A stretch of DNA of 64,000 bases from Halorientalis litorea. GTDB lineage: Archaea > Halobacteriota > Halobacteria > Halobacteriales > Haloarculaceae. The position numbers and the translations under genes are program-made. The notes below the pieces were generated by a model that saw nothing but the letters and a program-made list of their open reading frames with translations, was not told the origin of the DNA and searched no databases. Positions 44,766 to 63,768 of the stretch are shown here, piece by piece (positions within the stretch are counted from its first letter, which is position 1; each line of letters starts with the position of its first letter). The stretch spans positions 62,001-126,000 of the forward strand of contig NZ_CP095483.1 of NCBI RefSeq assembly GCF_023028225.1, read 5' to 3'.

Positions 44766-45190
44766 CCTGAGTGCTAGTCAGCGAACGGCCTGCGGCAATT
44801 GTTATGTCGCACTTAGTTCGTGCGTATTCGTAACACACCCGGAGTTTGCGTTGCCACCCCACGCTTCCGGCACCGATGTCGGTATGTATCCCTACCGTGC
44901 TCGCTGGCTTGGTAGCCGAAAACGGCCGATAAGAGGTCCTTACTGTGGTTAACAGTATAGTATGACTACCATTCTAACTGGTGTCGAGTGTTTGGAGATA
45001 CATACTGAACCGTAGGTAGGTACTACGCGCCACCATCCGGACGGATAAACCCCCGAACACAGGTGACATTGTTGCTGCTAGTATTCTGCACGTATTCGGT
45101 ATGCAATCTTTTCGAACTGGGGACGATGCTCGAGGATGCGGTAACGAGCGCGCCATATTGCTTTTACGGGTAATCTTCTCCTACCTGAGC
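44766..45190. other. Divergent region between the two beta-helix genes
   Basis: No gene is supported in these 425 bases. The minus side has the motif at 44794-44805. TACTGT and ACAGTA at 44941-44946 and 44952-44957 form a short hairpin. CTTTTACGGG near 45160 may be the promoter of the plus-strand gene. Confidence 0.5.
44794..44805 (-). promoter_or_regulatory. Promoter-like box before beta-helix lipoprotein gene
   Basis: Minus strand ATAACAATTGCC ends 28 bases upstream of the ATG at 44765. It matches the island motif with one extra T. Confidence 0.4.
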
Positions 45191-47098
45191 ATGGCAGACG
45201 AGTCAGATGAGAAAGACGCTCCTACCGAGAGTTTGTCGGGCGAGTCGGACCGAGTCGATGAAACAGTCGAGCGGACCGCAGCGATATCCCGCCGGTCGTA
45301 CATCGCGGCCGCCGTCGCCGCGGTCGGCATCGGCGGTGCCGCGACGGCAGTCCAAGGGGCAACGAGCGGGCAGGACATTGTCGAAGCTGGGGCCGACCCT
45401 ACCGGGAACGAACCGGTCAACGACGTTCTCCAGCGAGCCCTGAGCAACAACAAAGAAGTCCACTTCCCGGAGGGTGAGTACCTCGTCTCCGGTGACCTGA
45501 GCATCGCCGGTGACAACTGGACGGTGACCGGCAACAACGCGACGCTCTTGTTCCCCGGCGGCGGCCTCGACCTCTCCGGGAGTGGATGGACGTTCGACGG
45601 GTTCGAGGTCGATTTCCGCCAGCAGTCCGGGTTCTCCATCTGTTGGCTCGGAGATAGCGACTGGACCTTCGGGAACGTCGTGTTCCGTGGAACGCGGATG
45701 GTCGACAACAAGGCCCCTCTCCTCGTCCCGACCGTCCCGCAGGGGTCCACCGGACACATGCACGACATCTACGTCCACGAGGGGAACGCGGACGGCGACG
45801 AGGACGGGAAAGCCAAGCTTATGTGGCACGACGGTGACATGGCGGGGACGCTCACCATCGAGCGCATGTGGGCGGAGCACTGGTCCGAGAACACCATCTA
45901 CGCCTCCGACATGGCCGGGAAACTCGTGGTTCGTGACTCGTACTTCCGGAACACGAACACTGGGTGTATCCGCGGCTCCGAACACATCGAGGCTCACGGC
46001 TGTACCTTCGTCGTGGATGGGCAGACGCCGGGCCAGTGGAACGAAGAGCGCAAGGGTGCGACGGAGTTCAAGGGAATGTGGTGTAACTTCAACCGTGGCT
46101 CCGGCAACGGTGTCGGCGTCGTCCGGGACTGTGACTTCTACTACACCTACAGTGGCGGCGTCGGGTCCGCCGTCGAACTCGACGGCCCCGGTGACTCCAT
46201 CACCATCGACGACTCGCGGTTCCACGCGTCGTTCGACGTGGACATGATAGACGGCGCGGGCGAGAGCATGTCGAAACTCGGAGCCGGGAACGTCGTTTCG
46301 GGCGGGTTCAACGCCAACGTCGGGAGCATCGATGCCACGCGGTCCTCGACACGAGCCACCAGCGGGTCGCCACCGCTCCCCCAGCCGCCGGAACTCGGGA
46401 CGACGCCGAACGGAAGCACCGAGTCGACGGAGACGGCGACGAGCACCACCGATTTTAGCGACGACTGGAACAGCCTCCGAATCGACGGCGACGGCGACGA
46501 CTCGACGAGTGCCGTGTTCACCTTCACCGTCTCCGGTGACCTGGAACACCTCACGCCGGAGGATGCTGTCCTTCAGTCCGACCACGGCGTCGATGGCGGT
46601 ACCGCCACGGAGGACGTGTGGTCCGAATCCGAGGAGTACCGCTACACCGGTGACATCACCGACTTCCAAATCGACGGCCCGGCGACGGTGTACGTCGACG
46701 GCGAGCAGACGAGCATCGACGCCATCACCCAGACAGCGACTCAGACGGACACGGCAACCGAGACCTCCACATCCACGGAGACAGCCACGTCAACGGCAAC
46801 ACCGACGGAGACCGACACGACAACCGAAACCACGACCGAGACTGACACGTCCACGACGCTCCCGAACACCATCGTCATCGAGGGGACGCCCAACGACGTG
46901 AGTAAGTACAGTTTCTCCGTGAGCGACACGCTGGAGAAACACGAATCACTCGGAACGCAGAATGCGTCCGATGTCATCGACGGCACCAGCGTCTCGGGGT
47001 ACGTCAACGACGACGTGGACGCCTATCGGTTCGCCGGCGAACTCCAGAGTTTCGAGTTGACCGGGTCCGCAGCCGTGCAGTTCACCGACGGAAACTGA
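45191..47098 (+). CDS. Exported beta-helix protein with C-terminal repeat modules
   Basis: A 635-residue secreted protein. Residues about 34-55 (ISRRSYIAAAVAAVGIGGAATA) are a Tat signal. The central part, from HFPEGEYLVSGDLSIAGD to about residue 400, is a right-handed beta-helix. Then come two copies of a roughly 80-residue beta-rich module separated by a long Thr/Glu linker: TFTVSGDLEHLTPEDAV...YRYTGDITDFQIDGPATVYVDG and SFSVSDTLEKHESL...YRFAGELQSFELTGSAAVQFTDG. Such modules end many haloarchaeal secreted proteins. ATG at 45191 is set by the signal. Confidence 0.82.
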   Translation: MADESDEKDAPTESLSGESDRVDETVERTAAISRRSYIAAAVAAVGIGGAATAVQGATSGQDIVEAGADPTGNEPVNDVLQRALSNNKEVHFPEGEYLVSGDLSIAGDNWTVTGNNATLLFPGGGLDLSGSGWTFDGFEVDFRQQSGFSICWLGDSDWTFGNVVFRGTRMVDNKAPLLVPTVPQGSTGHMHDIYVHEGNADGDEDGKAKLMWHDGDMAGTLTIERMWAEHWSENTIYASDMAGKLVVRDSYFRNTNTGCIRGSEHIEAHGCTFVVDGQTPGQWNEERKGATEFKGMWCNFNRGSGNGVGVVRDCDFYYTYSGGVGSAVELDGPGDSITIDDSRFHASFDVDMIDGAGESMSKLGAGNVVSGGFNANVGSIDATRSSTRATSGSPPLPQPPELGTTPNGSTESTETATSTTDFSDDWNSLRIDGDGDDSTSAVFTFTVSGDLEHLTPEDAVLQSDHGVDGGTATEDVWSESEEYRYTGDITDFQIDGPATVYVDGEQTSIDAITQTATQTDTATETSTSTETATSTATPTETDTTTETTTETDTSTTLPNTIVIEGTPNDVSKYSFSVSDTLEKHESLGTQNASDVIDGTSVSGYVNDDVDAYRFAGELQSFELTGSAAVQFTDGN

Positions 47099-47199: not shown

Positions 47200-48192
47200 A
47201 TGGAATCCAGTCCGCGGGCGGCCGCACGTTCGGCCGAGTACGACCAATTGCGTGTGTTGAACCTCGTCCCCAGTCCGGACTCGGGCTTTTATCGGACACA
47301 GGTCGAGACGCTCTCGGAGCTGAACGTCGACGGCGAGACGATGCCCGTACCGGGTCGGACCGACGGGACAGACCCGGAGGAGAACCGCTCACCGCTCGAC
47401 TATCTCCGGTTTTTTCCGCAGACGGTACGGGCTGTCGAAGCCGACCACGACGTCGTTCACGCGAACTACGGACTGACTGCACCGCACGCGCTCGCACAGC
47501 GGCGTGCCCCCGTCGTTCTCTCGCTGTGGGGGACCGACGTGTACGGTCCCTTCGGGTGGGTGAGCAAACTCTGCGCACCGCTGTGTGACGCCGTCGTCGT
47601 CATGTCCGAGGAGATGGGCGAACAGTTGCCCTGCGACTACACCGTCATTCCCCACGGCGTCGACCTCGACCTCTTCCAACCGGAGCCACAAGAATTTGCA
47701 CAGTCCGCCTTGGGGTGGGACCACGACGCCCACCACGTCCTCTTCCCCGCACCGACCACCCGGGACGAGAAGGACTTCCCGCGGGCAGAGCAGGTCGTCG
47801 ATGCTGCCCGCACACGAGTCGACGCACCGATTCGTCTCGAAACCCCGAACGGGACTGTCTCGCACGACCAGATGCCGGTACTGATGAACGCCGCCGACGC
47901 ACTCCTCCTGACCTCTCGCTACGAGGGGTCACCGAACGTCGTCAAGGAGGCGTTGGCGTGCAATCTCCCGGTCGTCTCGACGGACGTTGGTGACGTGGCC
48001 GAACGGGTCAGCGACGTCTCGCCGTCGGCAGTCGGGTCGAGTGATGCGGAACTGGTCGACGCGTTGGTCACAGTGCTGGACCGCGGCGAGCGGTCGAACG
48101 GGCGCGAAACCGTCGAGGACCTGCATCTCGAACGCGTCGCCGAGCGGCTCCGGAGTGTCTACGACGATGTCGTTGCCGAGGCCGATGACTGA
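47200..48192 (+). CDS. GT4-type glycosyltransferase
   Basis: A 330-residue GT-B-fold enzyme. It has LVPSPDSGFYRTQVETL, VVLSLWGTDVYGPFGWVSKLCAPLCDAVVVMSEEMGEQL, then VIPHGVDLDLFQPEP and finally ADALLLTSRYEGSPNVVKEALACNLPVVSTDVGDVAERV, where the E-x7-E donor-binding motif of family 4 is clear. It adds a sugar from a nucleotide donor in glycan assembly. TATACTAAAG lies about 32 bases upstream. Confidence 0.92.
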   Translation: MESSPRAAARSAEYDQLRVLNLVPSPDSGFYRTQVETLSELNVDGETMPVPGRTDGTDPEENRSPLDYLRFFPQTVRAVEADHDVVHANYGLTAPHALAQRRAPVVLSLWGTDVYGPFGWVSKLCAPLCDAVVVMSEEMGEQLPCDYTVIPHGVDLDLFQPEPQEFAQSALGWDHDAHHVLFPAPTTRDEKDFPRAEQVVDAARTRVDAPIRLETPNGTVSHDQMPVLMNAADALLLTSRYEGSPNVVKEALACNLPVVSTDVGDVAERVSDVSPSAVGSSDAELVDALVTVLDRGERSNGRETVEDLHLERVAERLRSVYDDVVAEADD

Positions 48193-48241: not shown

Positions 48242-48273
48242 ACAGTTTGCCGTACCTCGGAGAGAGTGTCACC

Positions 48274-50088
48274 ATGAGTACACACTGGTTCGGCCAGCGG
48301 TCTCCACGAGCGAACGGGTGGCGGTACGCCGCGTGGCGCGTTCTCTTGTCGGTCGGATTTCTCGCCGTCGCGGCCGCCGCCGTCGTGGCTCACACGTCGC
48401 CAGCGACCGAGTACGAACTGTCCGTCTACAGCAGTACGCCCGTCGCGTTCTGGGTTGGGGTGGCCTTGGCACTCGGTAGTTCGCTTCTTATCGCCTTCTA
48501 CAGCCCGAAGCGAAGCGAACGCCGTCTGGCCCTCTTTCTCGCGGGCCTGAGTGTTCTGAGTGTCACCGCACTACCGCTTTTGAGGGGGTACGTATTCTAC
48601 GGCGGCGGCGACCCGCTGACACACTTGGGGTGGACTCGAAACGTGCTGTGGGGCGACCTCGAACTGTCGACGCTGCTCTATCCCGGCCTTCACGGCGTGT
48701 CGATTCTCGCCCACCGCGTGCTGGGTGTCGGACTGAAACAAGCCATGATGCTTACCACCTCGCTGTTCGTACTCGTCTTCGTCGTCTTCCTCCCGCTGTT
48801 CGTCCACACCGCCACCGACGACCTGACCGTGACGGCAGTAGGCGTGTTCGCCACGCTGATGTTGTTGCCGATAAACAACATCAGCACGCACTTGACGGCG
48901 TTTCCCAGCACGCTCGCGATATTTTTCACCCCGCTCGTACTGGTGTTGGCTCTCGTGTACCTGACGGAGCGGGGCCACCGTTCGTGGGTCCACCCCATCG
49001 GAGTGGTGCTGGCACTCGCGTCTGTGACGACGATACTGGTCCACCCACAGCAGGCGAGCAACCTCCTCTTCGTCGTCGCTACCGTCACTGTCGTCGTCGC
49101 AGTCAAACGACGGGTGTTCGGGTCGTCTCCGGACCTCCGCCCCCTATACGGTCAGACACTCTTCTTCGCGCTCGTCCTGGTCCTCTGGGGCATGACCCAC
49201 GAACGCGTCACCGAAGCCGCCACTGCCTACTCCGACTCCGTCTTCGAGACGCTGGCCGGCGCGTCCGAGGGTGCGGACACACTCGCCCAGCGTACGGGGT
49301 CGCTGGCCGACATCGGTGCCTCACCCGAAGAGATAGGAGTGAAACTGTTCCTCGTCAGCGGCATCTTCCTCCTCCTGACGGCGTATCTCCTCGGGCGTGA
49401 CCTGACCGGGCGGATGGAACAGTTCGCCCCGCGGGTACGCACACTCTCGTCGTTCGGGTTGGCACTCGTTCCCATCGGGGCCATCATGGTGCTGTACATG
49501 ATGGGGAATCTACAGACGATTTACTTCCGTCACTTCGGGTTCATCATGCTGATTGCGACGGTGTTCGGTGCGGTCGCTCTCGGTAGACTCTTCACTGCGG
49601 CTCGGGACGCGAACCACCGGCCAGTGGTTGCCGGAATCGTCGTTGTCTGTATCGCCGTGATGCTCACGCTCTCGCTGCTGACGGTGTTCCCGTCGCCGTT
49701 CATCTACAAAGCGAACGGGCACGTCACCGACGCGGAACTCGCTGGCCACGAGATGGCGTTCGAGAACGAATCCCCCGCTGTCGGCTATGTCGGTATTCGG
49801 ACGGGACCGGACCGCTACCGCGACGCGACAGAGGGTGTCCTCACGCTCGGCCCACGGAGCGAACGCCGCGAGAGCCGCGTTCCATACGGGCGTCTCGGTA
49901 GCGACCTGACGATCGAGTTCGAGGGGCCACGCTACGTCGTCGTCTCGCGGTCGGACGTCCAGCGTGAGACGGTGGCATTCCGTGGCCTCCGGTACTCTGA
50001 CGACGGGTTCCGTGCTCTTGGGACCGGCGATGGGGTCGACAGGGTACTCTCGAACGGTGACTTCCGACTCTACTACGTCCAAGACTGA
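48274..50088 (+). CDS. Large multi-spanning membrane protein (oligosaccharyltransferase- or polymerase-like)
   Basis: A 604-residue membrane protein with roughly 13 helices, followed by a beta-rich C-terminal domain (FEGPRYVVVSRSDV...RVLSNGDFRLYYVQD). An early lumenal loop has RGYVFYGGGDPLTHLGWTRNVLWGDLE, where acidic and His residues could form a catalytic site. This is typical of GT-C-fold or polymerase proteins of haloarchaeal glycan loci. I cannot tell polymerase from glycosyltransferase. One base separates it from the flippase gene, so they form one operon. The ATG at 48274 is preferred to an upstream start. Confidence 0.75.
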   Translation: MSTHWFGQRSPRANGWRYAAWRVLLSVGFLAVAAAAVVAHTSPATEYELSVYSSTPVAFWVGVALALGSSLLIAFYSPKRSERRLALFLAGLSVLSVTALPLLRGYVFYGGGDPLTHLGWTRNVLWGDLELSTLLYPGLHGVSILAHRVLGVGLKQAMMLTTSLFVLVFVVFLPLFVHTATDDLTVTAVGVFATLMLLPINNISTHLTAFPSTLAIFFTPLVLVLALVYLTERGHRSWVHPIGVVLALASVTTILVHPQQASNLLFVVATVTVVVAVKRRVFGSSPDLRPLYGQTLFFALVLVLWGMTHERVTEAATAYSDSVFETLAGASEGADTLAQRTGSLADIGASPEEIGVKLFLVSGIFLLLTAYLLGRDLTGRMEQFAPRVRTLSSFGLALVPIGAIMVLYMMGNLQTIYFRHFGFIMLIATVFGAVALGRLFTAARDANHRPVVAGIVVVCIAVMLTLSLLTVFPSPFIYKANGHVTDAELAGHEMAFENESPAVGYVGIRTGPDRYRDATEGVLTLGPRSERRESRVPYGRLGSDLTIEFEGPRYVVVSRSDVQRETVAFRGLRYSDDGFRALGTGDGVDRVLSNGDFRLYYVQD

Positions 50089-50089
50089 G

Positions 50090-51559
50090 ATGCCGGACAG
50101 GCACCCCGTGCTGGCCGGATTTCGTGCGATGCTGGCGGCAGATATCGCCCGATTGCTGGCGAAGGGTGGCATCCTCCTGTTGCTGACGCGGTTCCTGCTG
50201 ACACCTGCGGAGTACGGGCTACTCTTTCTCGCACTGTCGGTTCTCGGCATCACGTTTCTGTTCAGTAATTTCGGCTTACCGGGGTCTGTCGCCCGCTACG
50301 TCACCGAGTACGCCGAGACACGGCCCGGCCAAGTGCCGCACATCGTTCGCTTCGGCCTGTCGGTCAATCTCGTCAGTGTCACCGTCGTCTGCCTCGCTGT
50401 CGCTCTCTTTCGTGGCCACATCGCAGCGGCCATCGGCGAACCGGCACTCGCACCGCTGTTGCTCGTCGGCGTCGGGTTCATCGCCACGCGGTCGTTCGAG
50501 AAACACCTCTACGCACTGTTCCAGGCGTTCAACGACGTACGGTACACGGCGATAGTCAAAACCGTCGACAGCGTTTCCCAGCCGATACTCGTCGCGGCCG
50601 GCGTCCTCGCTGGCCTCGGCGTCGCGGGCGCGCTGGCTGGGTTCGTCGTCGCCGCCGCTCTCGGAACCGCTCTCGGCGTCGTCGTCCTCTACCGCCAGTT
50701 CTACCGGAACTGGGAGCCCGATGCCGAGATGGTCGCTGGCCTCCGAACGCGACTGCTCCGATACAGCGTCCCGCTGACTGCCAGTGGTGTCGCTGGCGTC
50801 CTCGACAAGCGCGTCGACACGGTGTTGGTGGGCTACTTCATGAACCCGACTGCAGTCGCGTACTACACGCTGGCAAAGCAGATCTCGGAGTTCGTGATGA
50901 CACCGGCGTCCTCACTCGGCTTCACCGTTTCTCCGCAGTTCGGCACGCACAAGGCCAACGGCGAACTCGACAAGGCCGCCGCGCTCTACGAGTCGGCGTT
51001 CGCACATACCGTCGCTATCTACGTCCCCGCGGCGGCCGGAATGATAGTCGTCGCCGACCCCGCCGTGACGTTCGTCTTCGGAGCCGAGTACAGCGGTGCA
51101 GTCACCGCAGTTCAAATCTTCGGCGTGTACGCCCTGTTGCTCGCGCTGGACAAGATAACAAACGACGGCCTCGATTACCTCGGACGAGCGAACGCCCGTG
51201 CGACGGCCAAGGGCATCACCTCGGCGGCGAACGTGGCACTCAACGTCGCGCTCATCCCGGTTTTCGGCGTCGCGGGCGCGGCTGGTGCCACCGTGATTAC
51301 TGTCTCGGGTCTCGTCGCCGTCGAGTTGTACGTCATCGCCAGCGAACTCCCGCTTGCCGTCGGCCGTCTCGTCCGGATGGCTGGACTCGTGTTCGGGATT
51401 ACCGGCGGGATGACTGTAGCCGTCGTGGCCTTGCTGCCCTACGTCTCCGGTCTCCTCTCGTTGGCGGGTGTCGTCCTCGTCGGTGTCGCAGTGTGGGCGG
51501 TACTCGCCACCGCAAGCGGCCTCGTCGACGTTCGGAAAGTCGGGATGTTGCTTCAGTGA
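50090..51559 (+). CDS. Polysaccharide flippase (oligosaccharide translocase family)
   Basis: A 489-residue membrane protein with 12-14 helices. It starts MPDRHPVLAGFRAMLAADIARLLAKGGILLLLTRFLLTP, and YGLLFLALSVLGITFLFSNFGL, then LDKRVDTVLVGYFMNPTAVAYYTLAKQISEF, are typical of the Wzx/RfbX family. It should flip a lipid-linked glycan across the membrane. It starts one base after the upstream gene's stop. The next downstream gene is a pseudogene. Confidence 0.9.
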   Translation: MPDRHPVLAGFRAMLAADIARLLAKGGILLLLTRFLLTPAEYGLLFLALSVLGITFLFSNFGLPGSVARYVTEYAETRPGQVPHIVRFGLSVNLVSVTVVCLAVALFRGHIAAAIGEPALAPLLLVGVGFIATRSFEKHLYALFQAFNDVRYTAIVKTVDSVSQPILVAAGVLAGLGVAGALAGFVVAAALGTALGVVVLYRQFYRNWEPDAEMVAGLRTRLLRYSVPLTASGVAGVLDKRVDTVLVGYFMNPTAVAYYTLAKQISEFVMTPASSLGFTVSPQFGTHKANGELDKAAALYESAFAHTVAIYVPAAAGMIVVADPAVTFVFGAEYSGAVTAVQIFGVYALLLALDKITNDGLDYLGRANARATAKGITSAANVALNVALIPVFGVAGAAGATVITVSGLVAVELYVIASELPLAVGRLVRMAGLVFGITGGMTVAVVALLPYVSGLLSLAGVVLVGVAVWAVLATASGLVDVRKVGMLLQ

Positions 51560-51562
51560 CCC

Positions 51563-52697
51563 CGATATTACTTCTTGCGGGGGTCGGACGGTCGCGTCGT
51601 CGTCACGGACCAATTCCGAAACGCGCTGTCGCGCCTCGACACAGCCGACCGAACAGTCCCCGATACCGCAGTCGTCGACCACATTCTCTACCGGGCTACA
51701 CCGGTCGGGACGTACGTTGCGGAGGTCGGACGCCTCGGCCACGGCGAGTCGCTCCGCTAGGACCCCGCGGTTGGGACACCCACGACGCGACTCGTCGAGA
51801 CGCTCCCGGACCCCGAACCGCGCGACGTCGAAACGGCGATATCGGCGCACTCGGGATGCCCCTCCAGCAGATACAGATTCCTATGCAGGACCTCGTGTTC
51901 CGGAACGGGAAGCCGACACGTACGTCAACGGTTTCCTCGCGGACTCGCTGTTCGGCATGGGTGCCGCCGCGGCCCGGTTGATGTGGCTGACCCGGCCGCT
52001 TCGTCACCTCTCGCCCGTCATCGGGAAACTCCGCTCGCATCGGGAGTACGCACGCGAACTCCTCCGCCCGCCGACTCACCCGCGTGGCTTCGCGCTCCAG
52101 TCCGTCCAGTACCAGTCGCTCGGCCTCGTGGAACGCATCGTTTCTCCCGAGACGGTGACTGACCGCCAGCGAGAACGGTTCCGGTACGTCCGTGACCGGG
52201 TGCCGAGCACGTCGTTTCCCGCTGATTTTGACACGCACATCGAAGTCGGACAGTGGGTCGAATACTTCTGTGAGAATACCGTCGACACGACTCGACAGGT
52301 GGCACAAGCCCGCGGGGTGTCGATGTCCACCCCCTACGCCGGGAAAGCCGTCGCGGAAACGGCACTGTCGATTCCGACCCCGGAGCGATTCCTCGACCGA
52401 CTTTCGGAGAAACACGTCCCGAAGAAACTGCTGGCACGCCGGCTCCTGGACTACCGGACTGGCAAACCCAAGGGCAACGGACATCTCCCCGAAGGACGGT
52501 ACTTCCGTGAGGGACCACTCGCCGACGTGTTCGAGAAGTACCCGATGCCCGAATTCGTCCCGGACGGCCTTCGGGCGGACCTCCCCGACGAACACCCGGG
52601 GCTGGCGTGGATTCTGGCGAGTTACGCCATCTGGCGCGACCGGGTTCTCACCGAACCGGTAGACCCGGTACCGGCGACCAGAACCGTAGAGGGATAG
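51563..52697 (+). pseudogene. Decayed asparagine-synthase-like gene
   Basis: The remnant of an asparagine-synthetase-related amidotransferase, a type common in glycan loci. Frame one (from 51563) reads RGSDGRVVVTDQFRNALSR, then VVDHILYRATP...RLGHGESLR followed by an in-frame TAG at 51758-51760, then WDP-like DPAVGTPTTRLVETLPDP. The sequence then shifts frame to MPLQQIQIPMQDLVFRNGKP near 51856, and shifts again to DTYVNGFLADSLFGMG near 51917. The last frame runs to 52697, with YFCENTVDTTRQVAQARGVSMSTPY and an intact C-terminus. The ATP-binding segment expected between the first parts is missing. At least one stop and two frameshifts are visible. Confidence 0.7.
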
Positions 52698-55173: not shown

Positions 55174-56265
55174 CTACGCGTCCGCGACGGCCGTCTCCAC
55201 CTCGCGACTCGCCTCGCGGACACACTCCATGAGCGTGATTGTCCACACTCCTTCCGTGAGGGGGACCGGCATCTCTCTCCCAGAGAGGAGGGCCGCGGCT
55301 TCGGCGTCTATCTGGTAGTAGTGTGAGTCGAGTTGCTTCGCGGACTCCCAGTCCCCGTCGAGTCGGTCCCGTCCGACCGCGAGCACATTGCGTGCGGTGC
55401 CGACGAATCGGTCCGTGGCCCGCGAGAGGTTGTTCCGCACCTTGGCGATGGCGGACCCGTTGAAGTTCTTCCCCACGTCGACGACGGTCTGTGACACCAT
55501 ATCGACAGTCAGCGAGTGGTCTTCCCCGTGGACGACCAGCAACTTCTGCGGTGCCGACCCCGCCAAACACTCGATGCTACAGAGTGCCCCGTCCTCGGTG
55601 GGATAGCTCACCTGCACCCCGTCGTAGGCGAAGCCACGGTCGTACTCGCCGTGCTTGCTCGTCTGGACGGAAACCTGCTCTCTACTCGCCGGATAGCCGA
55701 CGACACCGAGCATGGTGTAGAACGGGTGTGGCAGCCCCTCCTCGAACTCGCCGCCGACGAGTTCGAAGGCCCACTCGCCACGGTTCGCCATGTTGGGCCA
55801 CGTCTCGCCTGTGTAGATGAGGTCAGCACCACGAATCTCACCGAGGGCTCCCTGTTCGACGCGCTCACGGGCCGTCCGCACTGCCGGGTCGAACAGATGT
55901 TGATGCGTGACAGACACCGGAACGCCGTGTTGCTCACTGAGTCGTTGCAGTTGCTCGGCTTCAGCGACAGTCTCGGTGATGGGTTTCTCGATGTGGACGG
56001 GAACACCGGCCTCGATGAACTGCGCCGCGAGGTCACGGTGTGTTTGGACGGGGGTACAGAGGTGTACCCAGTCGAGTACACGGTCGTCGAGGAGGGCCGA
56101 AACGTCTGTGTAGGCGTCGATACCGTAGCGGTCAGCCACGTCTCGCGCGCGGTCCCTGTCTACGTCGCAGATACCGACGAGGGTCGTCCGTGGACACGCA
56201 TCGAGTGCAGAGAGGTGGTGGTCAGAAACAACCCCCGCACCGACGACTGCTGTTTCCAGAGGCAT
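55174..56265 (-). CDS. Gfo/Idh/MocA family oxidoreductase (first copy)
   Basis: A 363-residue NAD(P)-dependent sugar oxidoreductase. The Rossmann start is LETAVVGAGVVSDHHLSAL, and the family motif E-K-P is in VPVHIEKPITETVAEAEQL. The catalytic His region is near LPHPFYTMLGVVGYPASREQ. It converts a nucleotide sugar or free sugar by oxidation or reduction. The ATG at 56265 (MPLETAVV) was chosen over one at 56295. The gene lies 88 bases downstream of the sulfatase gene on the same strand, with its own box. Confidence 0.87.
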   Translation of the reverse strand: MPLETAVVGAGVVSDHHLSALDACPRTTLVGICDVDRDRARDVADRYGIDAYTDVSALLDDRVLDWVHLCTPVQTHRDLAAQFIEAGVPVHIEKPITETVAEAEQLQRLSEQHGVPVSVTHQHLFDPAVRTARERVEQGALGEIRGADLIYTGETWPNMANRGEWAFELVGGEFEEGLPHPFYTMLGVVGYPASREQVSVQTSKHGEYDRGFAYDGVQVSYPTEDGALCSIECLAGSAPQKLLVVHGEDHSLTVDMVSQTVVDVGKNFNGSAIAKVRNNLSRATDRFVGTARNVLAVGRDRLDGDWESAKQLDSHYYQIDAEAAALLSGREMPVPLTEGVWTITLMECVREASREVETAVADA

Positions 56266-56353: not shown

Positions 56354-57571
56354 TCACAGCATGTGTTCGGCGGCCAACGTCCGGGACGCAGCGCGAATCG
56401 TCTCACGGTCCTGCTCTCCCCGGCACCACGTATCGACTACCGACGACGCGAGCGATTCGAGAGCAGGATTCGACAGGGGCCGCGTCCCGTCGTCGTCCAC
56501 GACGGTGAGGCGGTCACCGTCCGGTGTCTCGACGTACTTCCACTCGCACCCCCGGACCGTGTACCGGGGGTTCCGGTTGCGCGCGGTGGCGACCGGCCCA
56601 GTCAGCGAACTCGGGTCGCCGTCGTCGGCGAGCGTCGTGAGCAGGTCCGGAAGTCGCCGCAACGAGAGCGGTTCCGAAACCCGGCCACTGGGGCCGTTCG
56701 CCACGAACAGCGGCACGTGTATCTGCTCCGTCGAGAGCGTCGGGCCGTGGCCGTACACGCCACGCTCTCCGAACGCCTCCCCGTGGTCCGCGTGGACGAC
56801 CACCGTCGTCTCCTCTCCCACGTCCTCGACGAACTGGCCGAGTCGGTCGTCGGTGTACCGAATCGTATCCTCGTAGGCACTGCGGAGACGGTCGCTGGCC
56901 ACGCCCTCGAACACGTCCGGGTCGTGGCCGGTGAGGTACAGCCACAGGTTACTCGCGTACGTCCCGAGCCGCGACTGTGACCGGAACTCCGGGACCGGCA
57001 GGTACGGCATGTGCACGTCGACGAGGAACACCCAGCAGAAGTACGGTTCGCCGGCCGACTCTGTCCACTCGACCACCTCGTCGTAGAAGGAGTCCCACGA
57101 CGCGACCATCCCGGCCTCGCGCGACCAGTTCTTCAACAGCCGGAGGCCGTAGGCGAGTCGTGACCCATCGCCGGTATCGCCCTCGCCGTCTGCTTCGGCC
57201 ATGAAGTCCTCGAAGTGGTCGAACCCCCGGTCGAATCCGAAGTACCGCGAGGTCCACGGGTTCGCGGTGAAACCCCCCGTTTCGTAGCCCAATCGCGAGA
57301 GCCGTTCCGGTATCGGGTCGGTCGCGCGGAGGTGGTGGCGACACAGGTCACGCGTGTCGGCCTCGCTGGCGGCGAGGTCGACTCCGGTGAACGTGCCCGG
57401 CAAAGCGTCGAGTGTCGAGGGGCCCGGCGATATCGCCCGCTCGAAGACGAGGCCGTCCTCGGCGAGGCGGTCCATGTTCGGGGTCAGTCCCCTGTCGTCG
57501 CCCATGAACCCGCAGTGGTCTGCGCGCAAGCTATCTATCGTCAGGAGAACGAGGTTCGGTTTATCAGTCAT
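56354..57571 (-). CDS. Sulfatase-fold hydrolase with non-canonical active site
   Basis: A 405-residue alkaline-phosphatase-superfamily protein. It starts NLVLLTIDSLRADHCGF with the metal-binding Asp, and has VVVHADHGEAFGERGVYGHG, the C-terminal metal-binding stretch. At the position of the formylglycine motif C/S-x-P-x-R it has GPSTLDALPGTFTG instead, so the Cys, Pro and Arg are not present. It may use Ser or Thr and act as a phosphodiesterase or phosphotransferase on glycans. The ATG at 57571 is preceded by its own box at 57612. Confidence 0.82.
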   Translation of the reverse strand: MTDKPNLVLLTIDSLRADHCGFMGDDRGLTPNMDRLAEDGLVFERAISPGPSTLDALPGTFTGVDLAASEADTRDLCRHHLRATDPIPERLSRLGYETGGFTANPWTSRYFGFDRGFDHFEDFMAEADGEGDTGDGSRLAYGLRLLKNWSREAGMVASWDSFYDEVVEWTESAGEPYFCWVFLVDVHMPYLPVPEFRSQSRLGTYASNLWLYLTGHDPDVFEGVASDRLRSAYEDTIRYTDDRLGQFVEDVGEETTVVVHADHGEAFGERGVYGHGPTLSTEQIHVPLFVANGPSGRVSEPLSLRRLPDLLTTLADDGDPSSLTGPVATARNRNPRYTVRGCEWKYVETPDGDRLTVVDDDGTRPLSNPALESLASSVVDTWCRGEQDRETIRAASRTLAAEHML

Positions 57572-57791: not shown

Positions 57792-59000
57792 ATGGGCTTC
57801 GAGACACACGCCACTGGGGACGGTGTCGTCGTTCCGGCATTGGAGAGTGCCGCCAGCAGCGTCGCCGTCCTCCGTTCGCTCGGGCGTAAGGGCATCCCGA
57901 CCATCGCCGTCTCCGAACACGAGCACCCACCGGGGTTCAGTTCGAAGTACGCCGACGAGACCTATCGGGTCCCGGACCCGGACGACGGCCTCACCGCGTA
58001 CGGTGACGCGCTCCTCTCGCTCGCGCGCCGGGACGACGTAAGTGCTATCGTGCCCATGCGGGAGACTGACGTGTACGTCCTCGCGAAGCGTCGCGGGGAG
58101 TTCGGTGAACACGTCAGCCCGCTGTGGCCGCCGCTGGAGACGCTCAGACGCGTACAGGACCGGGTCGAACTGTTCGACGCGGCGGAGACGGCAGGTGTTT
58201 CGACCCCGGAGACGACGACGCTCGACGAGTTCGAGGATTGGGACCGACCGGTCATCGTCAAGCCGCGCTTCACGCTCCACGCGGCCGAGTATCACCGCGC
58301 CTTCGCGGAGAGCCACCGCCACGACAACTCCACCGACTACGTCGCACGCGGCGAGCGGCCCTCGATACAGTCGTACCGCGAGGAGATGGGGCACGTCCCG
58401 CTCGTCCAAGAGTACATTCCCGACTCCGACGAGTATGCCTTCTTCGCGCTGTACGACGAGGGGGACCCGGTCGCGACGTTCCAGCATCGCCAGCGGCGAG
58501 GGTACAAGTACAGCGGCGGACCGAGTTCCTTCCGGCAGTCCGTGGACATCCCCGAACTGGCCTCGTCGGGGCGGCGACTACTCGACGAACTCGACTGGCA
58601 CGGGCTGGCGATGGTCGAGTTCTTACGTGACCCGGAGACGGACGAGTTCAAACTGATGGAGATAAACCCGCGCTTCTGGACGTCGCTCCCGTTCACGATT
58701 CAAGCCGGCGTCGACTTTCCGTACTACTACTGGCTCCTCGCCACCGGCCGTGGCGACGAGATAGACGCCGACTTCGACGTGGGCGTCGCCGGACACCTGC
58801 TCCGTGGGGAACTGCTCTATCTCCACAGCGTCCTCAGCGAGGAGTACCCGCTCGTAGAACGGCCGTCACTCGGTGAATCGGTCGCCGACATCGGGACATC
58901 CCTCGTCCGGCACCCACGCTTCGACTACCTCTCCGTCGACGACCCACGGCCGTTCGTCCGGGATATGCGAAACACCGTCGGCGAAGTACTGGACGTCTGA
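57792..59000 (+). CDS. ATP-grasp carboxylate-amine ligase-like protein
   Basis: A 402-residue ATP-grasp enzyme. The N-terminal part reads ALESAASSVAVLRSLGRKGIPTIAVSEHEH. VIVKPRFTLHAAEY and VPLVQEYIPDSDEYAFFAL are in the ATP-binding domain, and LMEINPRFWTSLPFTIQAGVDFPYYYW contains the Mg-binding Glu-x-Asn. It probably joins a carboxylate to an amine with ATP, such as an amino acid to a glycan or sugar. It is convergent with the PP-loop gene, six bases from its end. Confidence 0.87.
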   Translation: MGFETHATGDGVVVPALESAASSVAVLRSLGRKGIPTIAVSEHEHPPGFSSKYADETYRVPDPDDGLTAYGDALLSLARRDDVSAIVPMRETDVYVLAKRRGEFGEHVSPLWPPLETLRRVQDRVELFDAAETAGVSTPETTTLDEFEDWDRPVIVKPRFTLHAAEYHRAFAESHRHDNSTDYVARGERPSIQSYREEMGHVPLVQEYIPDSDEYAFFALYDEGDPVATFQHRQRRGYKYSGGPSSFRQSVDIPELASSGRRLLDELDWHGLAMVEFLRDPETDEFKLMEINPRFWTSLPFTIQAGVDFPYYYWLLATGRGDEIDADFDVGVAGHLLRGELLYLHSVLSEEYPLVERPSLGESVADIGTSLVRHPRFDYLSVDDPRPFVRDMRNTVGEVLDV

Positions 59001-59006
59001 CCTTCT

Positions 59007-60386
59007 TCACGCACTGCCGCCCGAAAGCCTGTCCATCACACCGTCGTAGAGTCGGTACAGCGGCGCGTACAGGCGGTACGGTGTGTGCCGTGCGGCGAGG
59101 CGGACCGCGCGGTGTTTCAGTGGCGAGGTTGCCGCTTCGGTGAACTCGTCGAAGTCAGCGTCCCGGAGCCACTCGTAGAACGCACGCACTTCCGGCGGTT
59201 CGTCGCTGTCGTCGTCGGGGACCCGGGACCGTATCTCCCGCCAGTAGAACGGCTTGTCCTCTATCAGAATCCACTCGTTGTTCTCGAACCCGTCGACGAC
59301 ATCGCTGAGGACGTCGTGTGAGTAGTCGTACCCGAACTCGTTGGGGTCCAGTCCCGCCAAGCGCAGTCCGAGCATCGTTCGGTAACACTTCTCACAGGCG
59401 TTGCAGTTGCCGCCGTTTTCGTCGTACAGGCAGGTCCGGATGGTGAAGTCGTCGTCGCCCGTCTCGTGGACGTACTCGGCGATTCGCTCGACTTTCGCCT
59501 GCCGGCAGAGGTCGTAGCCGTCGTGGGCAACCCGCGTCCCGGACCAGTTGATCTCGTCGTCGATAGTCGGGTGTGAGCCCCACGGGATGCCCTCGTATTT
59601 TTCGGTGTGGGAAGAGGCGATACGGAGCATCCCAATCCCCGTGGCGTACGCGAGCGGTGCACAGAGGCTCAACAGCCCCAGTCCGTGCCCGACGTGGCTG
59701 TACCAACTCCCGCCGTGGTACTGCCGGTAGTGGGCGTCGAGCATCGGTACGTTCAGGAACGACAGCATGTTCGAGCGAACTGTCCGGTGAGTGAGTCCAC
59801 GCTGTGCCGCGAACTCCTCGAAGTACGATTGCGTCTCGTCCCACCGCTGGGCATTGTCGTCGTCGATGACCCACCCGTGAATACTAATCAGCGTCGGGTT
59901 CTCCTCGCGGTGCCGAACGTACGTCGTGAGAGAGTCGACACCACCGCTGAACAGTTGTGCCGTCTCTCCGAACGGGCGATCAGGTCGCTCGTCGACGACT
60001 TCTGTCGGTCGCACCTCACCCTCCGTCGTCACGAATTCGGGGTACATCTCGTGGAGTGCGGCCCTGACAGTGGGGAGTGAGTCCGCGAACTCGCGGTCGA
60101 TGGCTCCTACTGTCACGTCGGTGCCGGTTGCCCATGCGACGGGACAGACGTGGCCCACCACCGGTATCGTCAGGACGTGTTCGGGAACGGTCGAAACGTC
60201 GACATCGTAACTGACAGAAAATGTGTCGTCGCGGAAGAACCGCTGTAGTCGGCCGGGAACGTCGACTGTACAGACGACATCGCTGCCATCGACCTGGACG
60301 TCGGCGACGGTGATAGCGGTGGCGTCCGCTCGGACCGGCGTCGACGGGACCGTCCGGTCCCGTTCGACCGCTCGGTGTTGACTCAT
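59007..60386 (-). CDS. PP-loop ATPase, QueC/ExsB-like, in glycan island
   Basis: A 459-residue protein. The N-terminal 135 residues are beta-rich. The PP-loop SGGVDS is at residues 147-152. The C-terminal part has CLYDENGGNCNACEKCYRTMLGL, four Cys in a spacing close to the zinc site of QueC. It should adenylate a substrate and add an amide, nitrile or sulfur group; the usual tRNA-modification neighbours are missing here. Possibly it modifies a sugar with the ATP-grasp protein. Start ATG at 60386. Confidence 0.8.
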   Translation of the reverse strand: MSQHRAVERDRTVPSTPVRADATAITVADVQVDGSDVVCTVDVPGRLQRFFRDDTFSVSYDVDVSTVPEHVLTIPVVGHVCPVAWATGTDVTVGAIDREFADSLPTVRAALHEMYPEFVTTEGEVRPTEVVDERPDRPFGETAQLFSGGVDSLTTYVRHREENPTLISIHGWVIDDDNAQRWDETQSYFEEFAAQRGLTHRTVRSNMLSFLNVPMLDAHYRQYHGGSWYSHVGHGLGLLSLCAPLAYATGIGMLRIASSHTEKYEGIPWGSHPTIDDEINWSGTRVAHDGYDLCRQAKVERIAEYVHETGDDDFTIRTCLYDENGGNCNACEKCYRTMLGLRLAGLDPNEFGYDYSHDVLSDVVDGFENNEWILIEDKPFYWREIRSRVPDDDSDEPPEVRAFYEWLRDADFDEFTEAATSPLKHRAVRLAARHTPYRLYAPLYRLYDGVMDRLSGGSA

Positions 60387-60410
60387 GTACCGCTTGTCTG
60401 TCCGGTTCGG

Positions 60411-60421
60411 ACCAAAGTTAT
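60411..60421 (-). promoter_or_regulatory. Promoter-like box before PP-loop gene
   Basis: Minus strand ATAACTTTGGT ends 24 bases before the ATG at 60386, in line with the shared island box. Confidence 0.42.
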
Positions 60422-60571
60422 GTACTGCTTCAATGCAGGAAGCAACCGACCGAACGCGGCGGCATGGGCAAGTTTGAATATGAGGTTCAGTTCGGTCGTG
60501 TCGCCAGCATTGGAATGTGTGTCGGTAACACGGCGCAAAATTCTTTCGGGATGTACCACAGTAGCCGCGGT

Positions 60572-60582
60572 ATAACTTTGCC
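60572..60582 (+). promoter_or_regulatory. Promoter-like box before small RHH-like gene
   Basis: ATAACTTTGCC ends 22 bases before the ATG at 60605. It is divergent from the box at 60411-60421. Confidence 0.45.
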
Positions 60583-60604
60583 TGTGGCCCGACCCTCGAC
60601 AACG

Positions 60605-60874
60605 ATGTCAGACCTGCAGTCCGATGGCCCGACGGGCGAACCCAGTCGAGACACTGAAGACCGGCAAGCGGTCGAACTCCCGTCACGTGTCGTGGCCCGT
60701 GTGGACGAGCGGGTACGCGTGACCGACTTCGAGTCGTCGGCCGACTACGTGACTTTCGTACTCCGTGAGACGCTCGCGCGAGTGGAAAGCGAGGCTGACG
60801 ACGAGACAGCGACCGATGGCGTCAGCGAGGCCGACGTACAGTCACGGCTAGAGTCACTCGGGTATCTCGAATGA
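60605..60874 (+). CDS. Small ribbon-helix-helix-like protein
   Basis: An 89-residue acidic protein. The core, VELPSRVVARVDERV followed by DFESSADYVTFVLRETLARVE, looks like a ribbon-helix-helix pattern. It ends EADVQSRLESLGYLE, a tail I also know from sulfatase-family and related proteins. It could be a small regulator of the island or a helper of the sulfatase-fold enzyme. It is convergent with the epimerase gene, one base apart. Confidence in the function is low. Confidence 0.72.
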   Translation: MSDLQSDGPTGEPSRDTEDRQAVELPSRVVARVDERVRVTDFESSADYVTFVLRETLARVESEADDETATDGVSEADVQSRLESLGYLE

Positions 60875-60875
60875 G

Positions 60876-61844
60876 TCAGTCGTTCGTGTCCCGGTACCAC
60901 GCCATGGCCGCCGGAACGTGGTCGGTGAGCGGGCGGTAGTCGTAGCCGAGTTCACACGCCGCCTTCTCCGAGGAGTAGAACAGTTCCGTCGTGGCGAGTC
61001 GAGCCATATCGGCTGTAAAGGGGAAGAAACGGACGCCGAGGTACTCGTCGCTCGCCTCGGCGACGTGGCCCAGTGTATGGACTACTGGGGCAGGGACTTC
61101 GAGGAGTGGGCTCGAACCGTCCACCGTCTCGGCGATGCGGTCGAGTGCTGCCGGGAAAGTGAGGTTCTGCCCGCCGAGGATGTAGTGTTCTCCGGGGTCG
61201 CCACGTTCGAGCGCGGCCAGCATCCCTCTAGCCACGTCCGTGACGCCCACGAAACTGACGCCGCCGGGGAGCGACGCGAACAGTTTCGGGTCGGTCACCG
61301 TCCGCAACAGTCGCCCGGTGAACTCGGTGTCACCCGGCCCGAACACCGACGTGGGGTGAACTGTCACCACGTCCAACCCGTCGTCGTAGTACTCCTGTAC
61401 GAGTCCTTCGGCAGACAGCTTCGCCTCTTGATACGGTCCGATTGGCGGTGCGAGGTCCGTCTCGTCGGCCACCCCCTCGCTCCGGCGTGTGCCGGCGGTA
61501 CTGGCGAAGAGAACGCGCGCTACACCGGCATCGTCCGCTGCCGCCAACACGTTACGCGTCCCGGCGACGTTCACCTCGCGGACTCGTTCGGGCGGCCCTG
61601 ACGCCAAACCGATACCTGCCAAGTGAACGACCGACCGACAGCCGGAGACGGCGTCGCGGACCGTCGCCGCGTCGAGTACGTCGGCAGTCACCCACTTCAC
61701 GTCGGTGTCGGAGAGAGCGGATGTATCCGAGGTCGGCCGCCGAGTCGCACGAACGTCCCACCCCCTCTCGTCGAGTTCGCGGACGAGGTGTGTCCCGATG
61801 AACCCCGTCGCACCCGTCACCAACACCGGCTGCATCCCGGTCAT
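60876..61844 (-). CDS. NAD-dependent epimerase/dehydratase
   Basis: A 322-residue extended SDR protein. The nucleotide motif reads VLVTGATGFIGTHLVREL. SVVHLAGIGLASGP follows, then FASTAGTRRSEG and the active-site pair Y-x3-K in IGPYQEAKLSAE. VHPTSVFGPGDTEF matches sugar-nucleotide epimerases and related reductases. It probably makes a modified sugar for the glycan. The start codon overlaps the DUF362 stop as ATGA, making it the last gene of a three-gene operon. Confidence 0.88.
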   Translation of the reverse strand: MTGMQPVLVTGATGFIGTHLVRELDERGWDVRATRRPTSDTSALSDTDVKWVTADVLDAATVRDAVSGCRSVVHLAGIGLASGPPERVREVNVAGTRNVLAAADDAGVARVLFASTAGTRRSEGVADETDLAPPIGPYQEAKLSAEGLVQEYYDDGLDVVTVHPTSVFGPGDTEFTGRLLRTVTDPKLFASLPGGVSFVGVTDVARGMLAALERGDPGEHYILGGQNLTFPAALDRIAETVDGSSPLLEVPAPVVHTLGHVAEASDEYLGVRFFPFTADMARLATTELFYSSEKAACELGYDYRPLTDHVPAAMAWYRDTND

Positions 61845-62698
61845 CGCTCCCCCCTGAGGTGTGGCGGGTAGATGTCGCCGCTGACCGCCGTGTAGAGGCG
61901 GTACCCTGCTCGAACGAGGGGGCTCGGGCCGTCAGGGTTTGGGGGTTCGCCGTCGGGGAGTTTCTGTCGGAGAGTGTCGAGGTCGATGCCGCGGACCGAC
62001 GGCATTTCAGTACCTTCGAGGGAATTGCCGGAGGATACCTCGTCGGGGTCGACAGACAAGAGCGAGGTGAGAATCCGGTCGATGGCCTCGACATCGGGGC
62101 CAGCGAGGAGTGCCGACGCGCGGTAGGGGTCACCGGTGAAGGTGTACGTCGCATCGACCACTGCGGCGACCGGGTCGACTGTTCGAGCGACGGTCCGAAC
62201 GTCCCCAGTCCGGGACGGGTCGCCCCCAGCGGCACGGGTGAGTGTCGTCAGCGCGCCAGCGATGCCCGTCTCGTGGTCCACGCGGCCACTCGGGACGACG
62301 ACGACGGGCGCGTCAAGGAGCGCGTCGGGGACTCGGGCGGCACCGAGCGTGCCGGGGCTGTCGGCGTGGACACCATCGAGCGATACGTCCGGGGTTGCGA
62401 CGGTACGCCGGTCGTACCCGAGCATCCGACCGACACGGGCCGGGTCCACCTCCCCGCCATCGGCGAGACACACCGTCACGTCCCCACCGTCCGCGTGTTC
62501 GGACAGCACCGTCGCTAGTGCCGAAACCACCACGGGATTCGTGACCATGCCCGTCGTCGGGTGGTACGGGTAGTGGGCATCGGCCACGATGGTCACGCCC
62601 TCGGTGCCGTCGATACCGACGCGCTCGACGAGCGTGTCGGCGGCACTGCGACAGGTGGCCTCTTCGAGGTCCGAGAGTCGGAGTCCGTGGACCGTCAT
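61841..62698 (-). CDS. DUF362 family protein
   Basis: A 285-residue protein. It reads GVTIVADAHYPYHPTTGMVTNPVVVSALATVLSEH, then VTVCLADGGEVDPARVGRMLGYD and APVVVVPSGRVDHETGIAGALTTLTR, close to DUF362 proteins of unknown function. No Cys cluster for an iron-sulfur centre is visible. The start at 62698 overlaps the Gfo/Idh stop, and its stop overlaps the epimerase. These three genes are clearly one operon and may work on one sugar. Confidence 0.8.
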   Translation of the reverse strand: MTVHGLRLSDLEEATCRSAADTLVERVGIDGTEGVTIVADAHYPYHPTTGMVTNPVVVSALATVLSEHADGGDVTVCLADGGEVDPARVGRMLGYDRRTVATPDVSLDGVHADSPGTLGAARVPDALLDAPVVVVPSGRVDHETGIAGALTTLTRAAGGDPSRTGDVRTVARTVDPVAAVVDATYTFTGDPYRASALLAGPDVEAIDRILTSLLSVDPDEVSSGNSLEGTEMPSVRGIDLDTLRQKLPDGEPPNPDGPSPLVRAGYRLYTAVSGDIYPPHLRGER

Positions 62699-63768
62699 GC
62701 AACCTCCAGCGGAACAGCGTCCGTCTCCGCCGCGTCGTAGGCTGCGGCGACGAGTTCGAGCGTCCGGCGGCCCTCGTCTCCGCTCACCGGCGGTTCCTCT
62801 CCGGCGTCGACGGCCTCTATGAACGCCTGCAGTGCCCGGTAGTGTGCTTGCAGGTAGTACGTCGGTGCGTAGTAGTCCGGTCGCTCCCCGAGTATCCGCT
62901 TGGCAACGTTCCGAAGCCCGCTCCGCGCCGCGTTCGCGTAGAAGTTCGACGGCGCGAATTCGTCGTAGTCCAGCGTGCCGGTCACGCCCTCCAACCGGAG
63001 GGACATGTTGAACTCGTCCAAATCTTCCCACTGGTAGGCCCCACAGTGGAGCGTGACGTGGGTCCCGGTCGACTCGGAGCGGCACAGGACCGTCGCGGTG
63101 TCCTCGACGTCGAGTGCGAGTTGGCTATCAGTCTCGGCCGCGACGACGCGCACGTCCCCGAACAGCCAGTCCACCACGTCGAACAGGTGGATGCCGAGTT
63201 CGACGAGGACGCCACCGCCGGCCGCGTTCGGGTCGAGATGCCAGTCGGGGAAGTCCCGTGTTGCTGGCGGCCGCTGAAACGGGCCGTAGTTGACACGGGA
63301 GACGGCCCCGAACGGGACGTGGCCGACGCGTCCCTCGCGGTAGGCCTCCTTGACAGCCTCGACGCCGGGCAGGTACCGAAGCGTGTGGTCGACGCCGACG
63401 TAGATGCCAGCACGCTCCGCAGTATCGAGCATCTGGTCTACCTCCGAGACGGACCGGCCGAGTGGCTTCTCGACGAAGGCGTCGCACCCCTGCTCGGCCG
63501 CCGCCGCGACGGCGTCGGCGTGGAGGAACGGCGGGAGTGCGACGACGACGGCGTCGAGTGACTCCGCGGCGAGCAACCGGTCGTAGTCCTCGTACACGGA
63601 CTCGACACCCCGGCGTCGCGCGTACTGCCGGTTCGCCGCGACGGTGTCGGCGGCCGCGACGACGCTGACCCCGCGCATCGCTCGGGCGGATTCGAGGTGA
63701 ACTTTCCCGATGTTTCCGACACCGAGGATACCCACCGAACAGTCACTCGCGGTTCGGCGGCCGAACAT
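62695..63768 (-). CDS. Gfo/Idh/MocA family oxidoreductase (second copy)
   Basis: A 357-residue sugar oxidoreductase. The Rossmann start is SVGILGVGNIGKVHLESARAM, the family motif is in CDAFVEKPLGRSVSEVDQML, and GGGVLVELGIHLFDVVDWLFG carries the conserved catalytic His segment of the family. The ATG at 63768 (MFGRRTAS) was preferred to a GTG at 63771. It is the first gene of the operon with DUF362 and the epimerase. Confidence 0.87.
   Translation of the reverse strand: MFGRRTASDCSVGILGVGNIGKVHLESARAMRGVSVVAAADTVAANRQYARRRGVESVYEDYDRLLAAESLDAVVVALPPFLHADAVAAAAEQGCDAFVEKPLGRSVSEVDQMLDTAERAGIYVGVDHTLRYLPGVEAVKEAYREGRVGHVPFGAVSRVNYGPFQRPPATRDFPDWHLDPNAAGGGVLVELGIHLFDVVDWLFGDVRVVAAETDSQLALDVEDTATVLCRSESTGTHVTLHCGAYQWEDLDEFNMSLRLEGVTGTLDYDEFAPSNFYANAARSGLRNVAKRILGERPDYYAPTYYLQAHYRALQAFIEAVDAGEEPPVSGDEGRRTLELVAAAYDAAETDAVPLEVA

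Follow-up and report, generated by a model that had tools for sequence, protein, structure and literature searches.

Enzymes built on the QueC fold have so far been connected to the modification of a tRNA base and, more recently, to the modification of proteins in phage defence. QueC is reported to use ATP to activate a carboxylate, to which it then attaches ammonia, and Cap9 to attach a protein amine (PMC13279940); ArtA performs the amide-to-nitrile step only (PMC13060819). QatC, whose structure is available (PDB 9y01/9y02), belongs to the qatABCD anti-phage defence system, and WbpG, an N-acetyl sugar amidotransferase, is likewise a PP-loop enzyme found in surface-glycan loci. Here, we compare these systems with a PP-loop protein from a 3.2 Mb haloarchaeal genome. 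Its gene lies on replicon C2 (157 kb), from which the window, i.e., the entire stretch of 64,000 nucleotides that we analyzed, is derived.

The PP-loop gene and its neighbours in the window

Open reading frame listing and translation revealed a gene for a PP-loop ligase of 459 aa (59007-60386, minus strand) and a gene for an ATP-grasp carboxylate-amine ligase of 402 aa (57792-59000, plus strand) that are separated by only 6 bp and convergently oriented, the orientation being as the original prediction of an ATP-grasp ligase facing a QueC-like PP-loop protein had it. All the neighbours named in that prediction are present as well: a sulfatase-fold enzyme (56354-57571, minus strand; PF00884, 117 bits), two Gfo/Idh/MocA sugar oxidoreductases (55174-56265 and 62695-63768, both on the minus strand; PF01408), an HpnA-like NAD-dependent epimerase/dehydratase of the SDR type (60876-61844, minus strand; PF01370), and a small RHH-like protein (60608-60874, plus strand). 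Its gene list lacked a DUF362 protein (61841-62698, minus strand), which is recognized by a weak match to PF04015 slightly under the cut-off. This protein, the epimerase and the oxidoreductase encoded at 62695-63768 make up a trio to which the second oxidoreductase does not belong. On the plus strand, the window furthermore carries genes for a family 4 glycosyltransferase (47200-48192; PF13692/PF00534), a multi-pass membrane protein (48247-50088) that is conserved in PP-loop loci (cluster 2) and annotated as DUF6541 in one relative, and a polysaccharide flippase (50090-51559; PF01943, PF13440). The glycosyltransferase, the flippase and the membrane protein, along with the conserved haloarchaeal contexts described below, support the proposal that this is a glycan locus. 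We found no described pathway with such a gene set, again in line with the original prediction.

Several further features of the window were noted in passing. A short asparagine-synthase-like reading frame (51957-52697, 246 aa; PF00733, 23 bits) adjoins the flippase gene and may be the remnant of a glycan-locus amidotransferase. The region 43074-47098 encodes a beta-helix protein together with a large unnamed one, and close to the PP-loop gene, clusters 1 and 5 (in loci L035-L074) are conserved unnamed proteins whose N-termini are export-like; all of these could possibly be polysaccharide lyases or surface proteins. The segment 22354-33453 carries C-P lyase genes, namely those of PhnI, PhnJ, an ABC ATPase and an amidohydrolase, as well as an ABC importer of the phosphonate type.

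The PP-loop protein is related to QueC and QatC

The PP-loop protein carries the motif FSGGVDS at residues 146-152 and four cysteines, C319-x8-C328-x2-C331-x2-C334, in the zinc spacing of QueC. Among 21 homologues from many phyla, Cys319, Cys331 and Cys334 are invariant and Cys328 is found in 20; Arg295 and Trp382 are conserved in this diverse set, and Trp228 and Pro273 are nearly so. The PP-loop itself, [ST]GG[VLI]DS, is kept in nearly all family members, and the spacing C(x)8CxxCxxC, exact in the window protein, varies from x7 to x9 in most relatives. The family can be described by the signature F[ST]GG[VL]DS, W228, GSxPxID, H288, R295xxK, C-x7/9-NC-x2-C-x-KC and W382. No Pfam, NCBIfam or PADLOC family matches the protein above its cut-off; PF06508 scores 15.5 bits, short of its cut-off of 22, and membership in DUF6395 (PF19932) was rejected since the weak shared signal stays below the cut-off.

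The core and the four-Cys zinc site are shared with QueC (PF06508), but the PP-loop protein has about 230 extra residues and is not the tRNA QueC of the organism. A canonical QueC is encoded elsewhere in the genome (C4:129828-130457; PF06508, 255 bits), complete with SGGMDS, VPFRN, YPDC and a CxxC zinc motif, and this identity was consequently discarded for the window protein. Pattern tests with the motifs of QueC and QatC taken from the literature (PMC13329287) found the QueC substrate motifs YxQxHxxE, VPxRN and YPDC in none of 20 and none of 34 family members, and the nucleobase-recognizing YPDC region of QueC aligns to W-G-S-H-P in the PP-loop protein. With the residues for deazaguanine recognition lost, a cyano-deazaguanine product appears unlikely.

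An AlphaFold2 model built from 34 homologues (pLDDT 88.7, pTM 0.87) was compared with known folds by Foldseek and VIA-align. Its best match is QatC (9y02; Z 13.6 over 299 residues), with residues 22-407 of the model aligning to residues 3-454 of QatC, followed by QueC (Z 11.6 and 11.5), Cap9 (Z 10.1) and ArtA, a nitrile synthetase (Z 9.7). Profile comparisons gave E-values of 9e-7 to haloarchaeal QatC-like proteins and of 1e-4 to the genome's own QueC. The label 'QueC-like' is thus apt for the PP-loop and the four-Cys site, but the nearest fold is that of QatC. Both proteins possess an N-terminal alpha/beta extension, a QueC-like core, a helical C-terminal extension, the PP-loop, and an HP motif near the substrate site. 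They differ, however, in the zinc spacing, which is C-x7/9-C-x2-C-x2-C in the PP-loop family and C(x)19CGxCxxRR in QatC. Of the five motifs of QatC, four, including D(x)4R(x)7WxR, DxW/YxxxF and P(x)4TK, occur in no family member; the fifth, RxRxxxF/Y, is a loose pattern that occurs in part of the members. The QatC model NF041925 has no match anywhere in the genome, and the PADLOC qat models have none among the homologues and window neighbours tested, so that an assignment to QatC and defence by sequence was rejected. The genomic neighbours differ as well: they are glycan genes here, and the qatA, qatB and qatD genes that accompany QatC were not seen. Cap9, from type IV CBASS, and ArtA share the PP-loop core fold but occur in other contexts, and Cap9 is a minimal protein that retains the deazaguanine pocket, unlike the PP-loop protein. 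WbpG differs in its cysteine pattern and gives no sequence match. On these grounds, the family is a relative of both QueC and QatC and a member of neither.

Several haloarchaea encode QatC-like proteins of about 488 aa (L208-L212) that score below the QatC cut-off and have the QatC-type cysteine spacing.

Distribution of the PP-loop family

The PP-loop family is large and uncharacterized. Among 391 Halobacteria genomes, 103 encode a homologue; most of these belong to one family, which the named records identify as Natrialbaceae, and the five further sampled genomes of the window's genus yielded no homologue. In a scan of genome contigs, a single-sequence query gave no match, and an alignment query recovered homologues. 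Outside the haloarchaea, the gene was found in Dehalococcoidia, Thermofilaceae, Alphaproteobacteria, Dependentiae and Bathyarchaeota, on plasmids of Priestia, Pseudobutyrivibrio, Gloeothece, Azospirillum and Gemmobacter, and on prophage-like contigs; the carriers include Chloroflexota, Bacillota and cyanobacteria. Every annotated plasmid record that we found labels the homologue 'hypothetical protein'. Two or three tandem copies of the gene are present in Halosimplex-type, Chloroflexota and Priestia loci (L037, L177, L178 and L198).

Gene context in haloarchaea

To judge which neighbours are conserved, we tallied up to 10 kb per side of 69 named haloarchaeal PP-loop loci. A homologue of the membrane protein encoded at 48247-50088 is present in 53 of them, an alkaline-phosphatase-superfamily protein in 51, a polysaccharide deacetylase in 42, and the Gfo/Idh-DUF362-SDR trio in 31-32; homologues of the family 4 glycosyltransferase (28/69), GNAT proteins (12/69) and the ATP-grasp protein (10/69) are less common, and the sulfatase homologue is found in none. 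Most PP-loop loci, those of bacteria and of prophage-like contigs included, are devoted to surface polysaccharides; some homologues (L035, L054 and L071) lie outside glycan loci. The trio oxidoreductase of the window (62695-63768) is 55-63% identical to its homologues in Natrialbaceae PP-loop loci. Of the 57 genomes positive for the DUF362 family, 50 also possess the PP-loop gene (Fisher p 2.6e-29, a value that overstates independence given the shared ancestry of the genomes), and 40 of the 57 hits are located within 9 kb of it. The window genome stands outside the main carrier family, yet it has kept the linkage to the trio. The tallies thereby rule out a conserved six-gene operon, and they remove the sulfatase from the pathway. 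The co-occurrence of the whole set that was originally envisaged for haloarchaea holds for the PP-loop gene and the trio; the ATP-grasp gene is optional, and the sulfatase and RHH-like genes are a separate matter. Collectively, the link of the PP-loop gene to surface glycans is well supported.

The sulfatase (56354-57571) and the RHH-like protein (60608-60874) form a conserved haloarchaeal pair of their own (compare L233-L243): RHH-like homologues adjoin sulfatase homologues in eight of 11 other loci, in several of them as a divergent pair, and a ninth shows a short sulfatase match at its edge. Since the ATP-grasp/PP-loop pair sits between these two genes in the window, the locus is best seen as a mosaic of modules. 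The RHH-like protein matches no Pfam or NCBIfam family. Two observations make 60608 a more likely start than 60464: some 30 bp ahead of it there is a TATA-like box (60569-60579), and homologues align to the C-terminal part only. The promoter-like box GTATAACT, which the original prediction took to be shared by the genes of the locus, does precede the ATP-grasp gene (57753) and the RHH-like gene (60569), but in its exact form it was not found before the oxidoreductase and epimerase genes; we regard it as a TATA box of the usual archaeal kind.

The ATP-grasp protein is an optional partner

The ATP-grasp protein matches PF02655 with 28.2 bits (cut-off 23.2), and its AlphaFold model shows the full ATP-grasp architecture, with 2pn1, PurK, biotin carboxylase, PylC and an L-amino-acid ligase as the best fold matches. 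The full-length fold is the one of the PRK12767/PylC-type ligases (2pn1, Z 26.6; PylC, Z 23.3), but the protein scores far under every NCBIfam equivalog cut-off. Its ATP/Mg residues Lys157, Glu290 and Asn292 are invariant in 21 homologues. Of 381 haloarchaea, 206 carry the gene, mostly unlinked to the PP-loop gene, and it stands alone in eight sampled loci. Nevertheless, 11 genomes from three to four lineages have the two genes at most 1.4 kb apart, where about 0.14 would be expected, and those pairs that we checked are convergent. In two loci (L050 and L051), a GNAT gene fills its slot. The ATP-grasp gene is hence an optional partner of the PP-loop gene.

Gene context outside haloarchaea

A polysaccharide pyruvyl transferase gene (PF04230) lies next to the PP-loop homologue, or at most two genes away, in Thermofilaceae and in an alphaproteobacterial MAG, and the same proximity is seen on plasmids, in the PP-loop loci of Azospirillum, Gemmobacter, two Gloeothece, Priestia and Pseudobutyrivibrio. 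By simple count, such genes are frequent near the bacterial PP-loop homologues examined here. The Priestia locus additionally contains a UDP-glucose/GDP-mannose dehydrogenase gene, galU and a YheC/YheD gene; we take YheC and YheD to be ATP-grasp proteins. On prophage-like contigs, relatives of the PP-loop gene lie among tail and lysis genes, one of them with an O-antigen ligase (Wzy_C) gene as its neighbour, another with a flippase gene; two PP-loop relatives had no match in the INPHARED phage records. The window's genome has no PF04230 gene, and haloarchaeal PF04230 genes show no clear association with the PP-loop gene (14/33, p 0.058, none nearer than 36 kb). A pyruvyl ketal as the substrate in the window organism was rejected on these two grounds.

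Discussion

We tentatively propose, as a reading that is quite possible though short of probable, that the PP-loop protein is an ATP-dependent ligase that amidates a carboxylate of a surface glycan, with the trio preparing the sugar and the ATP-grasp protein acting as an optional second decorating enzyme. The protein would work in the cytoplasm, as part of an unclassified branch of the QueC superfamily, on precursors of surface glycans. It would adenylate a sugar carboxylate, in the window organism most likely that of an aminouronic acid residue, and pass the activated group on to ammonia, yielding a uronamide, or to another amine. Assembly and export of the chain would fall to the glycosyltransferases, the flippase and the large membrane protein; the ATP-grasp enzyme, where present, would form another amide bond, and in related loci its slot is taken by a GNAT acyltransferase. 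We infer the adenylation chemistry and the carboxylate amidation from the modelled fold and the conserved residues; the exact sugar and amine are guesses on our part. Because the deazaguanine pocket has been lost and glycan genes surround the PP-loop gene, the most parsimonious explanation is that a glycan carboxylate is amidated.

A second sugar-nucleotide gene set on the same replicon (L079, 8547-16196; C2 10547-18196) encodes an NDP-sugar dehydrogenase, a UDP-GlcNAc 3-dehydrogenase-like protein, a PseC-like aminotransferase and a hexapeptide acetyltransferase, and to judge from these predicted functions it could provide a diacetamido-uronate. Its distance of about 100 kb from the PP-loop gene counts against a link, but four other loci have an equivalent set close to their PP-loop gene. 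In the Priestia locus, the UDP-glucose/GDP-mannose dehydrogenase is another candidate source of a carboxylate. Against amidation speaks that no glutaminase partner was seen in the loci and that the WbpG family shows PP-loop enzymes to be capable of other sugar chemistry, from N-acetyl to acetamidino; against a glycan substrate speaks that QatC, the nearest structure, is proposed to modify a protein, and that some PP-loop homologues lie outside glycan loci.

These objections lead to the alternatives. The PP-loop protein might act as QatC and Cap9 do, possibly in defence: it would modify a partner protein, such as one of glycan synthesis or of the surface, by coupling an activated carboxylate to its N-terminus. 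The fold match including the N-terminal extension, the stronger profile match to QatC-like proteins than to QueC, and the relatives in prophage-like contigs argue for this view, but we consider it improbable: four QatC signature motifs are missing, the homologues tested match no qat model and the genome holds no match to the QatC model, no conserved small partner protein was seen in the loci, and the surroundings are glycan rather than defence genes. Still less probable is a WbpG-like enzyme that turns the N-acyl group of an amino sugar into an amidine. WbpG has been placed in the same superfamily, as cluster 5 (PMC13329287), four loci contain WbpA/B/E/D-type genes close to the PP-loop gene, genes of a kind that the window's replicon carries as well, and a formyltransferase-family gene adjoins the homologue in Gemmobacter. 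However, there is no match to the NCBIfam N-acetyl sugar amidotransferase family, the cysteines are QueC-like with CxxC(x)6CxC missing from all members, and no HisH/HisF-like ammonia partner was seen.

A second, divergent 7-deazaguanine enzyme, either a QueC or a nitrile/amide synthetase acting on CDG that came into the locus by happenstance, would account for the QueC-like zinc spacing and fold; it is very hard to reconcile with the loss of all three substrate motifs in 20 of 20 members, with the canonical QueC that the genome has retained, and with the lack of queD and queE neighbours, and we regard it as extremely improbable. The adjacency of the PP-loop and ATP-grasp genes, finally, might be due to chance, with unrelated roles and only the PP-loop protein in the glycan pathway. 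This notion, compatible with our preferred explanation, draws on the wide and mostly unlinked occurrence of the ATP-grasp gene; the excess of close pairs over expectation in three to four lineages and the convergent orientation of the pairs checked render it unlikely, though far from negligible.

In a broader sense, it is conceivable, and we say so with more reserve than for the window protein, that this branch next to QueC and QatC acts on glycans in both archaea and bacteria by amidating (or nitrilating) the carboxylates of surface sugars, and that it includes a prophage-borne gene for surface conversion. If true, a large unnamed sister branch working on surface glycans, prophage-like conversion loci included, would add a third role to the QueC fold. 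A gene that is carried by about a quarter of the sampled haloarchaea and annotated as 'hypothetical protein' in all the plasmid records found would thereby gain a function, and its products would become testable enzymes. Such a finding would also hint at the type of reaction from which the structurally similar QatC might have evolved.
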